Virus record (IMG/VR): IMGVR_UViG_3300032294_000893
Span: 1-29,149 of that record
Direction: 5' to 3' (one strand)
DNA: 29,149 nt
DNA from: a virus
Below, one piece after another: positions 8,937-16,412 of this stretch. Every line of letters begins with the position of its first letter. Position 1 is the first letter of the stretch. The notes below the pieces were generated by a model that saw only the letters and a program-made list of their open reading frames with translations, was not told the DNA's origin and ran no database searches. Made by a program: the position numbers and the translations under genes.

Positions 8937-9482
8937 ATGAAAACTTCCGATAGCATCAAACAGATTGCTGAAGCTTTAGTGTCGGCGCAAAAAGAAATTA
9001 AATTTGCCGTTAAAGATTCAACCAATCCTCACTTTAAATCTAAATACGCTAATATTAATTCTGTTATTGATGCGGTTAAAAAACCACTCAATGATAATGG
9101 CATAGCAATACTCCAATCATTAAGCCCTTCCGATGACGGCAAGCTTCATCTAACTACTCGTTTAATCCATAGTTCAGGGGAATGGATTGAAGATACTGCC
9201 GTCTGTCCTATTCAAAAGCAAGATCCACAAGGATTAGGATCAGCCATATCTTATATTCGCCGTTATAGTTTATCTGCTATGTGCGCCGTTTATGCCGATG
9301 ATGATGATGGCCAATCAGCCGCTTTAAATGCCGCAGATTATCTTCAAAAAATTACTCATAGCCAATCTTTAGATGAGCTTCAAGCTAATTATAATTTTGT
9401 TATGGGTGAAGTTAAGAATGACAGAACTCTATCTAAAATGATCATTGAAGCAAAAGACAAAAGAAAGGCAGAACTCGTATGA
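8937..9482 (+). CDS. ERF-family single-strand annealing protein
   Basis: The product is 181 aa. The core NPHFKSKYANINSVIDAV, LNDNGIAILQSL, then SSGEWIEDTAVCPIQKQDPQ, GSAISYIRRYSL and ADDDDGQ is the ERF superfamily pattern (P22 Erf relatives). It anneals complementary single strands during phage recombination and genome circularisation or repair. It works naturally with the YqaJ-type exonuclease two genes downstream and the SSB-like protein after that. The ATG is preceded by AAGGACAAGACAAG. The C-terminal 50 residues are helical and variable, as usual in the family. Confidence 0.92.
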   Translation: MKTSDSIKQIAEALVSAQKEIKFAVKDSTNPHFKSKYANINSVIDAVKKPLNDNGIAILQSLSPSDDGKLHLTTRLIHSSGEWIEDTAVCPIQKQDPQGLGSAISYIRRYSLSAMCAVYADDDDGQSAALNAADYLQKITHSQSLDELQANYNFVMGEVKNDRTLSKMIIEAKDKRKAELV

Positions 9483-9802: not shown

Positions 9803-10245
9803 ATGGGGCTTATTCATATAAAGAAAGAAATAATGTTGTAAATATAGCTGAAGTATTGTTTGAAGCTTATTGCCAATCTAAAGGTTATTTTTATAGAAGA
9901 TTAGGGTTTGATGAGAAAAACGATCCTATACCTAATTTTTATGACCTTAATACTTTTATTAGAAATATGCCTGATTTTTATATTAATAATAATGGCAAAG
10001 CTGGGCTAATAATGGTTAAGGGAACGGCTAATATTAAAGCTTCAGAAATTAAAATGCTTCCAATGTTTATGGAATGGTATAGCTCTGAAAAATGCCCATT
10101 ATTATATGCATTTTGTTTTAAGGATCAAAAGCCATTATTACTACATCCTGATAAAGTTATATTTTTGTATGACAATGCAACAGATCAACAATGGCATGAC
10201 GGCGTAACTTATAGAAACTTAAATTTAAACAAGGAAACTATATGA
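9799..10245 (+). CDS. Putative PD-(D/E)xK-like protein, altered active site
   Basis: The product is 148 aa. It has the order of small resolvase/restriction-fold proteins: an N-terminal helix with Glu (NIAEVLFEAYCQSKGYFYRR), then PDF (58-60), a beta strand and MVKG (72-75). In active enzymes the last strand reads E-x-K; here Met stands in the Glu position (IMVKG), so catalysis may be lost or use another residue (E21 or E83). It lies directly upstream of the exonuclease, so a recombination role is likely. The start overlaps the upstream stop as ATGA. The assignment is tentative. Confidence 0.4.
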   Translation: MNGAYSYKERNNVVNIAEVLFEAYCQSKGYFYRRLGFDEKNDPIPNFYDLNTFIRNMPDFYINNNGKAGLIMVKGTANIKASEIKMLPMFMEWYSSEKCPLLYAFCFKDQKPLLLHPDKVIFLYDNATDQQWHDGVTYRNLNLNKETI

Positions 10246-10907
10246 AATTAGAAGATAGAATTATTAGAGGTATAGAGCAGGGATCACCAGCCTGGAGTTC
10301 GCTCCGCATAGGCCGCATAGGCGGTAGCCGTATAAGTGATCTTTTAACTGAAGGTCGATCAGGCAATGAATCTTTAACTAGGCGCAAATATAAAAATGAA
10401 TTAATTAGGGAAAGATTAACGCAAAAAAAATTAGATACATATAAAACGCCTGCGATGATAAGAGGGATAGAACTTGAACCGCTGGCTCGTTCTTGGTATG
10501 AAGTTAAAAATAATGTATTTGTGGATCAAGTGGCTATTGTTAAGCATCCTACTATTGAAAATGGCCAATGCTCACCTGACGGCATAATTTTTGCTGATAA
10601 ACCATATTTGATTGAAATTAAAGTGCCTGATCCGAGTAACCACTTGGACAACTATTTAACAGGCGGTAAACAACTAGAACAGTATTATGACCAATGCATG
10701 TGGCAATTGGCCTGCATGCCTGAAATGGAGTTTTGTGATCTCATTTCTTTTGATCCCGACCTTACAGGATTGGAAGGATTTGTGAAGCGTATTTATCGAG
10801 ATGATGAATATATAAAAATGATGGAAGATAAGGTGATCTTATTCTTACAGGAAATAGAAACTACTGTTAATAACTTAAAGGAAATTAAAAATGGCAATAA
10901 CCCATGA
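10242..10907 (+). CDS. YqaJ/lambda-type 5'-3' exonuclease
   Basis: The product is 221 aa. GSPAWSSLRIGRIGGSRISD (14-33) is the N-terminal signature of the YqaJ/lambda Exo family. The catalytic parts are GIELEP (75-80), CSPDG (Asp113) and LIEIKVP (Glu125, Lys127), then a Tyr/Gln-rich helix (QYYDQCMWQLAC). It resects DNA ends and pairs with the ERF annealase to form a phage recombination system. AAGGAAACTAT before the ATG is the recurrent leader of this operon. Its 3' end overlaps the SSB-like gene by 17 bases. Confidence 0.9.
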   Translation: MKLEDRIIRGIEQGSPAWSSLRIGRIGGSRISDLLTEGRSGNESLTRRKYKNELIRERLTQKKLDTYKTPAMIRGIELEPLARSWYEVKNNVFVDQVAIVKHPTIENGQCSPDGIIFADKPYLIEIKVPDPSNHLDNYLTGGKQLEQYYDQCMWQLACMPEMEFCDLISFDPDLTGLEGFVKRIYRDDEYIKMMEDKVILFLQEIETTVNNLKEIKNGNNP

Positions 10908-11118
10908 TCTAATCGCTAAAACAGGCGAATATACAAACGCTAACGGCGAAACAAAAGCTAGATGGACTAAAGTCGGCGTGGCTATGAGCAATAAACAAGG
11001 TGGAACTTCACTCTTGATCGAAAGTATCCCTGTCAATTTTGACGGCTGGGTAACTATGAGAGAACCGCAACCTAAACAAGCTGGCGGTGCAGAGGATAAA
11101 ACTGACCTACCATTTTAA
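10891..11118 (+). CDS. Small SSB-like protein with DLPF tail
   Basis: The product is 75 aa. It reads as a compact beta domain (KTGEYTNANGETKARWTKVG, then LLIESIPVNFDGWVTM) followed by a flexible, acidic end AEDKTDLPF. The closing DLPF resembles the DIPF tip by which bacterial SSB recruits partner proteins. The context (annealase, exonuclease) fits a single-strand DNA binding or competitor protein. It is much shorter than E. coli SSB (178 aa), so a true OB fold is only an inference. AAAGGAAATTAAAA precedes the ATG. Confidence 0.55.
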   Translation: MAITHDLIAKTGEYTNANGETKARWTKVGVAMSNKQGGTSLLIESIPVNFDGWVTMREPQPKQAGGAEDKTDLPF

Positions 11119-11192
11119 TGATTTTACTGATGGCATGAGCCACAATGTAGCCCATAATGATTGTGCAGTATTTATTAATTAAGGAGCATATT

Positions 11193-11264
11193 ATGTGGAC
11201 TAAACCATCAGCAACAGAAATGAGATTTGGCTTTGAAGTAACAATGTATGTTATGAATAAGTAA
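11193..11264 (+). CDS. pqqA: PqqA-like PQQ precursor peptide, 23 aa
   Basis: AAGGAG stands eight bases before the ATG at 11193, and TAA ends at 11264. The 23-aa product starts MWTKPSATEMRFG, then FEVTMY, and ends in Asn-Lys. PqqA of Klebsiella-type bacteria is also 23 aa, starts Met-Trp, and carries the core G-(F/L)-E-V-T-x-Y. Here Glu15 and Tyr19 fall at exactly the positions that PqqE joins to begin pyrroloquinoline quinone synthesis. No pqqB, C, D or E gene is in the window, so the peptide would depend on host enzymes. It is the last gene of the recombination operon, directly before a strong terminator. The reading (length, start, core motif, Glu/Tyr spacing) is hard to explain by chance. 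It may raise PQQ for methanol or glucose dehydrogenases, or act as a decoy. Confidence 0.85.
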   Translation: MWTKPSATEMRFGFEVTMYVMNK

Positions 11265-11284: not shown

Positions 11285-11290
11285 TTAAAG

Positions 11291-11313
11291 AGGGGCTTAA
11301 TTGCCCCTTTTTT
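11291..11313 (+). terminator. Rho-independent terminator of the rightward operon
   Basis: AGGGGC, loop TTAATT, GCCCCT, with the stem ending at 11308 and then running into an unbroken T tract. It ends transcription after pqqA, just ahead of the convergent leftward genes. The 18-base palindrome is identical to that at 7563-7580. Read on the other strand the flank is not T-rich, so it works mainly rightward. Confidence 0.85.
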
Positions 11314-11361: not shown

Positions 11362-11541
11362 GCCTGTATTGCCATTTGTGCCAATTAAATCCATACGATC
11401 CTCATCCCAAGTATCCGATGAATCGTCTGAATCAAAATACTTTTCCTTGCGGCCAAATATTAAATCGTAATTATCATCATATTGTTTCTTTTGTTTCAAT
11501 TTGTTTGTTGATCCCTTACCAGCTTCCGAATATTTACTCAT
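11344..11541 (-). CDS. Hypothetical protein, 65 aa, last gene of the leftward block
   Basis: The product begins MSKYSEAGKGSTNKLKQKKQ and continues YDDNYDLIFGRKEKYFDSDD. The start 'MSKYSE.GKGS' followed by a 'YD.NYD.IFG' core is a pattern known from many phage genomes, with no assigned function. A basic N-terminus is joined to an acidic C-terminus. The ATG overlaps the 3' end of the HNH gene by eight bases. The stop lies in an inverted repeat. Confidence 0.65.
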   Translation of the reverse strand: MSKYSEAGKGSTNKLKQKKQYDDNYDLIFGRKEKYFDSDDSSDTWDEDRMDLIGTNGNTGDHYIK

Positions 11542-11893
11542 AGTTTTCTCTCACCCAATTAGAAAAGTTAATTAAATCGTCTTTATTAGCCGTATGTTTC
11601 ATTGTATTGGCTTTTGATGATATTACTTGAATATTGCCTTTAATGTAACCTTTAGTATTGTCTATACGATCAAGGCTAGGGCTTAAATCTCGGTTTCCAT
11701 CAATGGATTTTTTTAAGGGAAGTCCCAAAATGGGACATACTTCAGGAATAACTATATCTGATATTTCTATATCAAACGGAATACCTTTAGTTTTAGATCG
11801 GTATTGAGCTTGTTGAAATAAATTTCTTTCTCGATTGTTTGCTTTCCAATCTCTTAAATACTGACATCTATTGCTCTTTTCTTTTAAGGGCAT
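11534..11893 (-). CDS. HNH/endonuclease VII-like His-Me finger nuclease
   Basis: The product is 119 aa from the ATG at 11893, one base after the stop of the holin-like gene. A Cys in the segment IPEVCPILGLPL is followed by LSPSLDRIDNTKGYIKGN and IQVISSKANTMKHT, the typical end of phage His-Me finger nucleases: Asp in SLDRID and Asn in KGN and SKAN. The frame extends upstream only through a TTG at 11926, which lies in the holin gene and was rejected. It is a likely homing or DNA-processing nuclease placed between lysis and small genes. Confidence 0.75.
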   Translation of the reverse strand: MPLKEKSNRCQYLRDWKANNRERNLFQQAQYRSKTKGIPFDIEISDIVIPEVCPILGLPLKKSIDGNRDLSPSLDRIDNTKGYIKGNIQVISSKANTMKHTANKDDLINFSNWVRENYE

Positions 11894-11894
11894 A

Positions 11895-12056
11895 TTACTT
11901 TTTAAATTTAGAACGCGCCCATTCAAAGATTCTAATGCAATACCAAACTATAGATAACAATGCCGCAATAGCTGGTAAAAATTTCATAACAGTTCCTAAA
12001 ACTGTAACTCCCGAAACTGTATCTAATACATGTTTCGTATGTTCTTGCATATCCAT
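11895..12056 (-). CDS. Small holin-like protein, 53 aa
   Basis: ATG at 12056, TAA at 11895-11897. The product starts MDMQEHTKHVLDTVSGVTVL, followed by a TM region GTVMKFLPAIAALLSIVWYC and a basic end IRIFEWARSKFKK. The layout (a short amphipathic N-terminus, 'KFLPAIAALLSIVWY.IRI.EW', a basic tail) matches the class II, T7-type holin-like proteins of many phages. It would be an inner-membrane lysis protein. A second holin type lies at 1-258, so this phage probably has two. A weak GAAAGAAATAAT precedes the ATG. Confidence 0.7.
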   Translation of the reverse strand: MDMQEHTKHVLDTVSGVTVLGTVMKFLPAIAALLSIVWYCIRIFEWARSKFKK

Positions 12057-14297: not shown

Positions 14298-16412
14298 TTA
14301 TGCTGGATAAATTAAAAATACCCTGTCATTTAAAGTTAAGCCCGTTGCAAACACTACTGAAGTTCCACCTGAAACTGTAACATCAGCACCATTATCCATG
14401 ATAACACCATTTACTGATACTTGTATTTTATTAGCAGTATAAGTTGCTGAAGTCGTAAATGTAGTTTGAGAAGCAGTTGCATTAAATTCATCATATCTTA
14501 ATGATCCCCCACCTGCACCACTAAATCCTGAAAAGCCACTAAAGCCTGATATGCCACTACCACTAAAGCCTGAAAAGCCTGATATACCACTAGCACCTGT
14601 AGCTCCACTAAATCCTGATAAGCCACTTGCACCCGTAGCGCCACTAAAGCCTGATAACCCTGATGCACCTGTAGCTCCACTAAATCCTGAAAAACCGCTT
14701 ATGCCTTGCGCGCCTGTCGCACCGCTAAACCCACTTAAACCGCTTGCACCATTAGCACCGCTAAATCCTGATATACCTGACGCACCATTGATACCACTAA
14801 ATCCCGATAAACCTTGTTGCCCACTAAAACCACTAAACCCTGATAATCCTGAAGCACCTGTCGCACCTGTAGCCCCGCTAAATCCGCTAAATCCGCTAAT
14901 ACCTTCAGCGCCGCTATAACCCGAATAACCTGAAATACCTGAAGCACCATTAGCTCCACTAAAGCCACTAATGCCCGATGCGCCATCTTGACCGCTAAAG
15001 CCACTTAAACCTTGTTCACCACTATAACCGCTATAACCACTAAAGCCACTTAAACCTATTGGGCCTTGCTGACCGCTAAAACCGCTTAAACCACTAGCGC
15101 CATTTTGACCACTAAATCCGCTAAATCCGCTAAAGCCACTATAACCGCTAAAGCCTGAAACACCATTCACTAAAGCAAATATTAAATCATGGTTATTGCC
15201 AAAACCTGAAGTGCCTATACCTACACTTGAAATTAAAGTAACAGGATATTCCCAATAAGAAGTAGAAGTGCCTGGATTATAATGAATAGGCGTGCCATTA
15301 ATTTCCCAAGTTTGAGAATTAGCGCTTGAAGTTCTATCTTGAATAACAAATTGCTCTGTTACTTTTAATAATGCTAAATAAATGTCAATATCATCATTAT
15401 TTTTATCAAGATGTGAAACATTAATTGCAGTCGCACTTATTTGAGTTGCATTATTCCAAGACAAATAACCATTGCCTGGATAGCCTGAAGTTGAAGTAGC
15501 ATTGGCATCATATTCAAAAAAGCTTGATGATGAGCCTGGCGTGCCACTAAAACCGCTATAACCTGAATAACCCGATGCACCGCTGTCACCTGAAAAACCT
15601 GAAGTGCCTTGTTGGCCACTAAAACCACTAAAACCACTAAAGCCTGATAAACCTACTTCACCTGAATAACCACTATAACCTGATAAACCTGAAGCACCAT
15701 CTTGGCCTGAATAACCACTTAAACCATTGATACCGCTATATCCGCTAAAACCTGATGCACCTGATTCACCTGAATAGCCGCTAAAACCACTTATACCTTG
15801 TGGGCCTGCTTCACCTGAAAATCCGCTATAACCGCTAAATCCTGATAAACCAACCTCACCGCTAAAACCACTATAACCTGATAAACCGCTTGCGCCATTT
15901 TGACCTGAATAGCCGCTTAAACCATTAACACCTGAATAGCCGCTATAACCTGATTCACCTGACCAGCCACTTATACCTGAAAACCCTGATGCGCCGTCTT
16001 GACCTGATATACCGCTAAATCCTGAATAACCACTTATGCCACTAGAGCCTGATTGGCCATCAATACCGCTATAACCTGATATACCGCTAAAACCACTATA
16101 ACCCGATATGCCACTTGCACCTGACCAACCTGAAACGCCTGATCCTGAATAACCTGATATACCTGACCAACCGCTTATGCCACTAGCACCGCTATAACCT
16201 GATTCACCTGAAAAACCTGAATAGCCACTTATGCCACTAAAACCGCTAGTGCCAACGCCACTAAAACCTGAATAACCTGAATAACCTGAAAAACCTGATA
16301 AGCCTGAAGCGCCTTGCACTCCACGATCAATTGTAATTTCAGTTGTAGAAGTAGGCGTTACTTCTACTGTTATATTGTTGCTATCAACAACATCAATAGA
16401 ATAATTAGCCAT
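14298..16412 (-). CDS. Collagen-like tail fibre/appendage protein, 704 aa
   Basis: A short N-terminal domain (to about residue 30) leads into two long runs of Gly-X-Y triplets, residues about 30-291 and 414-632. X is mostly Phe, Tyr, Leu, Ile or Ala and Y mostly Ser, with repeated blocks of GFSGYSG. Pro is rare. A non-collagen domain of about 120 residues (292-413) separates the runs, and a C-terminal beta knob (about 633-704: LRYDEFNATASQTTF to DRVFLIYPA) probably trimerises it or binds a receptor. It lies next to sugar-modifying enzymes and a double oxygenase. No ATG-proximal signal peptide is present. Its attachment point is not shown by the sequence. Confidence 0.8.
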   Translation of the reverse strand: MANYSIDVVDSNNITVEVTPTSTTEITIDRGVQGASGLSGFSGYSGYSGFSGVGTSGFSGISGYSGFSGESGYSGASGISGWSGISGYSGSGVSGWSGASGISGYSGFSGISGYSGIDGQSGSSGISGYSGFSGISGQDGASGFSGISGWSGESGYSGYSGVNGLSGYSGQNGASGLSGYSGFSGEVGLSGFSGYSGFSGEAGPQGISGFSGYSGESGASGFSGYSGINGLSGYSGQDGASGLSGYSGYSGEVGLSGFSGFSGFSGQQGTSGFSGDSGASGYSGYSGFSGTPGSSSSFFEYDANATSTSGYPGNGYLSWNNATQISATAINVSHLDKNNDDIDIYLALLKVTEQFVIQDRTSSANSQTWEINGTPIHYNPGTSTSYWEYPVTLISSVGIGTSGFGNNHDLIFALVNGVSGFSGYSGFSGFSGFSGQNGASGLSGFSGQQGPIGLSGFSGYSGYSGEQGLSGFSGQDGASGISGFSGANGASGISGYSGYSGAEGISGFSGFSGATGATGASGLSGFSGFSGQQGLSGFSGINGASGISGFSGANGASGLSGFSGATGAQGISGFSGFSGATGASGLSGFSGATGASGLSGFSGATGASGISGFSGFSGSGISGFSGFSGFSGAGGGSLRYDEFNATASQTTFTTSATYTANKIQVSVNGVIMDNGADVTVSGGTSVVFATGLTLNDRVFLIYPA
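14510..16315 (-). repeat. Gly-X-Ser coding repeat tracts
   Basis: The coding strand consists of hundreds of repeats of the type GGT/GGC-(TTT/TAT)-AGT/TCA, read on the plus strand as 'cctgaaaaacctgaataacc' and variants. Codon choice varies between copies, so many units are not exact DNA repeats, but blocks of 9-20 bases recur. A gap from about 15173 to 15540 is not repetitive. Such tracts readily recombine and can change in length. Confidence 0.75.

Follow-up and report, generated by a model that had tools for sequence, protein, structure and literature searches.

A PQQ precursor gene, pqqA, in phages of methylotrophic Methylophilaceae

A classical auxiliary metabolic gene of phages is psbA of cyanophages, a host-like gene believed to keep energy metabolism going in infected cells. 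Closer to the gene described here is a T4-like methylophage population from Lake Baikal, VP_266, in which PqqA was found together with a methanol dehydrogenase (Coutinho et al. 2020, PMC7678222); the same study proposed that viral PqqA raises PQQ for methanol oxidation. According to the literature cited in PMC9851590, a glutamate and a tyrosine of PqqA are cross-linked by PqqE and become PQQ. The novelty of viral PqqA that the initial annotation of our locus had implied was thus forestalled by the report of this one population. Two papers on phages of OM43 (PMC9004378, PMC10580990) do not mention pqqA as a phage gene. What appears to be new, allowing that further reports may exist, is the spread of the gene over unrelated phages, its repeated acquisition, the evidence for selection on it, the observation that it often occurs without the dehydrogenase, and the fact that it had been missed in isolates.

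The locus lies in an IMG/VR virus record of 29,149 bases, which we refer to as the window. A frame of 23 codons and a stop on the plus strand (11193..11264) encodes MWTKPSATEMRFGFEVTMYVMNK. It follows a ribosome-binding site, AAGGAG, read from the sequence at 11181..11186 with a six-base spacer to the ATG, and translation and comparison of copies place the codons from Glu15 to Tyr19 (E-V-T-M-Y), the residues turned into PQQ, at 11235..11249. The initial annotation had described just such a frame behind a perfect AAGGAG and had called it a phage-encoded PqqA, and both points are borne out: the peptide scores above the curated cut-offs of Pfam PF08042 (E=3.2e-11, 43.3 bits, cut-off 21.1) and NCBIfam TIGR02107 (E=2.3e-10, 40 bits, cut-off 20), in both cases far beyond chance, and is the sole PqqA match in the contig. 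PHROGs holds no family for it, and a PDB search gave no sequence match to it. With host Methylophilaceae PqqA it shares the length, W-x2-P, E/D9, R11, G13, E15-V-T-x-Y19 and N22. The E-x3-Y spacing of glutamate and tyrosine is conserved in 137 of 137 copies among its relatives, most of which are preceded by an AGGAG-like site. The peptide thus agrees with PqqA in every testable sequence feature, and its identification as a phage-encoded PqqA is well supported.

The window matches methylophage P19250A in 40 of its 51 frames, and the DNA round pqqA is 78% identical between the two. Its genes include an Erf annealing protein, an exonuclease, an endonuclease, a tail fibre and a tape-measure protein. 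Three plus-strand genes lie upstream of pqqA: an Erf-like single-strand annealing protein recognized by family match (8937..9482), which belongs to the same rightward unit, a recombination exonuclease of the RecE/YqaJ type (10242..10907; phrog_149, E=1.2e-38) and, directly adjacent, a 75-residue protein of a PHROG of unknown function (10891..11118), placed similarly to a gene of the metagenomic phage ctXG6705 called 'putative single-stranded DNA-binding protein'. By its fold, a hairpin with a T run on the plus strand (11287..11312) resembles an intrinsic terminator that would end the rightward unit after pqqA; one such hairpin was found, against 0.6 expected in shuffles. Promoter consensus sequences upstream of pqqA, reversed copies included, did not exceed shuffles or chance. 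On the minus strand, the window has an Endonuclease VII/HNH-like gene (11534-11926); 'Srd anti-sigma factor' is a further match of its family, and a homologue in a Rhizobium phage bears the label 'postulated decoy of host sigma factor', which is probably a misnomer. A collagen-like repetitive tail fibre of 704 residues (14298-16412, minus strand) is found at about the place where P19250A has a gene of far greater length, annotated there as tape measure.

A translated search of 50,697 phage records recovered pqqA from isolated methylophages of OM43/LD28 (Venkman, P19250A, MEP301, MEP401, MEP402 and four strains of Melnitz) and from ctXG6705. Six unlike phages searched whole (Venkman, P19250A, MEP301, MEP402, Melnitz, ctXG6705) have one copy each, and that of MEP401 is known from a protein search. 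Among these phages are a T4-like member of the Kyanoviridae, one of the Zobellviridae and small tailed phages. HTVC008M, a pelagiphage from the same collection, had no PqqA match. That annotation would overlook so short a gene had been anticipated, and indeed it is unannotated in five isolates (Venkman, P19250A, MEP301, MEP401, MEP402), while in Melnitz and ctXG6705 a 'hypothetical protein' is wrongly called on the opposite strand. Degenerate DNA patterns, used in IMG/VR because the peptide has only 23 residues, matched at least 120 contigs, and 115 of the 120 loci listed have further proteins in common with the isolates or the window.

Matches to PqqA of the Enterobacteria and alpha types were kept apart from the methylophage set. 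Two viral contigs (L287, at 2623, and L291, at 5893) carry a different, alpha-type peptide, MKTWNIPTVTEVEVGLEVTAYMPAEVEIV, in what is apparently a phage context, which suggests that phages infecting other hosts acquired pqqA separately. Enterobacteria-type genes, for instance MWKKPAFIDMRLGLEVTLYISNR, occur in L277, L279-L285 and L288-L290; several of them are near the ends of contigs of about 40 kb and adjoin the start of a TonB-receptor-like frame, and these contigs may be prophages inserted beside a host pqqA rather than phage-borne copies. Five further contigs (L272-L276) have a Methylobacterium-type peptide (GMEVTSY), and their viral status is doubtful because the neighbouring genes look at least partly bacterial. 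Two records named 'Acinetobacter phage MD-2021a' matched pqqA (CAKLQF020000010.1, CAKLQH020000055.1); inspection of one of them revealed pqqB, pqqC and pqqD, and it was rejected as host sequence.

We used the exonuclease gene of the window as a neighbour by which relatives could be found without recourse to pqqA. In 22 of the 23 relatives obtained in this way the two genes are near each other. One of these is L313, which has a 52% identical exonuclease and encodes pqqA on the other strand; the remaining relative, L314, is a short fragment. The frame is therefore conserved in related phages, a point on which the initial annotation had staked its reading. Of 34 informative Venkman-like relatives, which reach down to 62% identity in the exonuclease, 31 have pqqA; none of 43 more distant relatives does. 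Neighbouring genes of MEP402 and Melnitz led to relatives with pqqA within reach in 4 of 45 and 8 of 80 cases, respectively. At the homologous site the gene is missing from some near relatives of Melnitz, MEP402 and Venkman, these being fragments that may carry it elsewhere: Melnitz has it between a gene and tRNA-Leu, where L492, L497 and L498 have very similar flanks and an empty site, and the Venkman-like L398 has an empty site where L395 has pqqA. Sites and orientations differ among phages, with pqqA opposed in direction to both of its neighbours in 43 of 149 loci. An accessory gene repeatedly gained and lost would show this pattern, and we take pqqA to be one. Although strain H5P1 is a host of both Venkman and Melnitz, the pqqA genes of these two phages match at no more than 49 of 66 bases.

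The phage peptide is under strong purifying selection at the protein level. Over 131 distinct copies dN/dS was about 0.12 (0.18 at positions free of the search pattern), and among the copies reached through the exonuclease gene, an unbiased sample, 0.095 (0.167 at free positions); the isolates together with the window gave 0.12. Synonymous sites are highly variable (pS 0.43-0.55), whereas Glu15 and Tyr19, for which selection had been predicted, are kept in all 137 copies examined; a scan by residues 1-14 alone found no copy that lacked Glu15 or Tyr19. What is maintained is therefore the peptide, in particular the two residues that are turned into PQQ.

On the host side, pqqA was found in 142 of 142 Methylophilaceae genomes searched, with 1-12 copies each; published genomes have 3-12 copies of pqqA as against single pqqBCDE genes (PMC4109929), and one PQQ producer has five differently expressed copies (PMC9851590). 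In contrast to the host gene, the phage gene is encoded without pqqD or pqqE: among 26 phage records (20 from IMG/VR, the window included, and six other phages) there was no PqqE above the cut-off and no PqqD, while the same searches recovered both genes in a host genome used as control (G001). The initial statement that the window contains no other pqq gene holds for pqqE and pqqD, the two sought. Three phage peptides are identical to host peptides. The exact peptide of the window is absent from the host peptides retrieved, with a best host match of 59 of 66 bases; tracing the source host of each copy by distance is limited by these 66 bases. A PQQ methanol dehydrogenase was detected in one of 34 viral contigs, several of which are short, and in none of the six other phages. 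The one case, a 72-kb viral contig (L041, IMGVR_UViG_3300025120_009955), has a methanol/ethanol dehydrogenase (TIGR03075) at 34049-35731 and pqqA at 41890-41952, and thus combines the two as VP_266 does. The window resembles VP_266 in having PqqA in a phage of Methylophilaceae, but VP_266 is a single T4-like population with the dehydrogenase, whereas the window represents a tailed phage like P19250A, and the majority of the carriers found here have no methanol dehydrogenase.

We conclude that this is a genuine pqqA gene, which probably serves as an auxiliary metabolic gene of a phage of methylotrophic Methylophilaceae: it is located in real phage genomes, both in the window and in isolates, it is kept there by selection, and the hosts have a homologue and the pathway, the window's own host being judged from its relatives. 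Like psbA, it is host-like and tracks host physiology; unlike psbA, it would provide a consumable 23-residue substrate of a cofactor pathway and not an enzyme or photosystem protein. As for its role, our preferred reading, to which we assign a probability of about three in four on the sequence evidence, is that phage PqqA serves as a substrate of the host PQQ pathway and sustains PQQ and methanol oxidation during infection. Host PqqD would bind the phage-made PqqA, and host PqqE would cross-link its Glu15 to its Tyr19; the PQQ that results from further processing would load methanol dehydrogenase and maintain the energy supply. The occurrence of pqqA without pqqD and pqqE, in phages whose hosts have the pathway, supports this, as do the joint presence of pqqA and a methanol dehydrogenase in L041 and VP_266 and the lack of a match in the pelagiphage HTVC008M. 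Each PQQ uses up one PqqA, whereas the enzymes act repeatedly, so that additional substrate costs less to provide than any other part of the pathway. The many host copies of pqqA beside single copies of the other pqq genes indicate that hosts themselves raise substrate dosage, to which phages add one copy. The benefit of a phage pqqA is not obvious, because hosts already have several. It also counts against this reading that the gene is not universal, being absent from the homologous site in some near relatives (fragments that may have it elsewhere), and that no promoter above chance was detected for the reversed copies.

Of the two mechanisms proposed at the outset, this supply of substrate fits the data, while the other, a decoy, fits poorly. 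Here the peptide would occupy host PqqD or PqqE and block PQQ synthesis or the maturation of another peptide, stopping methanol oxidation. PqqA does bind PqqD tightly (Kd 0.39 uM; PMC10906245), so that an excess could saturate it, but binding alone needs no retention of both cross-linked residues, and a decoy would gain by losing the reactivity that all phage peptides examined have preserved. As, in addition, three phage peptides equal those of hosts and one phage contig pairs pqqA with methanol dehydrogenase, we regard a decoy as quite improbable. It is unlikely, too, that pqqA is a mere passenger, a small host gene often picked up with little effect on the phage. The many dispersed copies in hosts and the polymorphic sites, with relatives whose sites are empty, are what one would expect of a passenger; purifying selection within phages and the retention of one site across a lineage, as in the exonuclease relatives of the window and the informative Venkman relatives, are not.

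In several phages pqqA forms a short cassette between genes and close to those of recombination, which could also bring to mind a conserved DNA or RNA object, such as an attachment or recombination site or a regulatory RNA, rather than a peptide. This is contradicted by the codon pattern, in which synonymous sites diverge around a fixed peptide, and by sites and flanks that differ between phages, and we consider it very improbable. Host DNA misassigned to a virus does occur, as the host contig with pqqBCD under the name of an Acinetobacter phage illustrates, but the chance that it explains the present gene is negligible: the window has most of its frames in common with an isolate, as well as tail and recombination genes, and complete isolate genomes carrying pqqA refute it.

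Supply of substrate thus remains our favoured reading, and since pqqA recurs in many unrelated viruses of methylotrophs, supplying PqqA seems to help these viruses. On balance we lean towards the view that phages of methylotrophs have acquired pqqA repeatedly, with PQQ supply as a general bottleneck in the infection of methanol oxidizers and with a class of 'substrate' auxiliary genes that has been missed for its length. As this case shows, viral gene surveys systematically overlook metabolic genes of peptide size. The hypothesis of substrate supply can be tested at once, because several isolated carriers have cultured hosts. OM43 and related methylotrophs convert methanol from phytoplankton to CO2 and biomass. 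Should it be common for their phages to replenish the cofactor of methanol dehydrogenase, infection would act directly on methanol oxidation in oceans and lakes.
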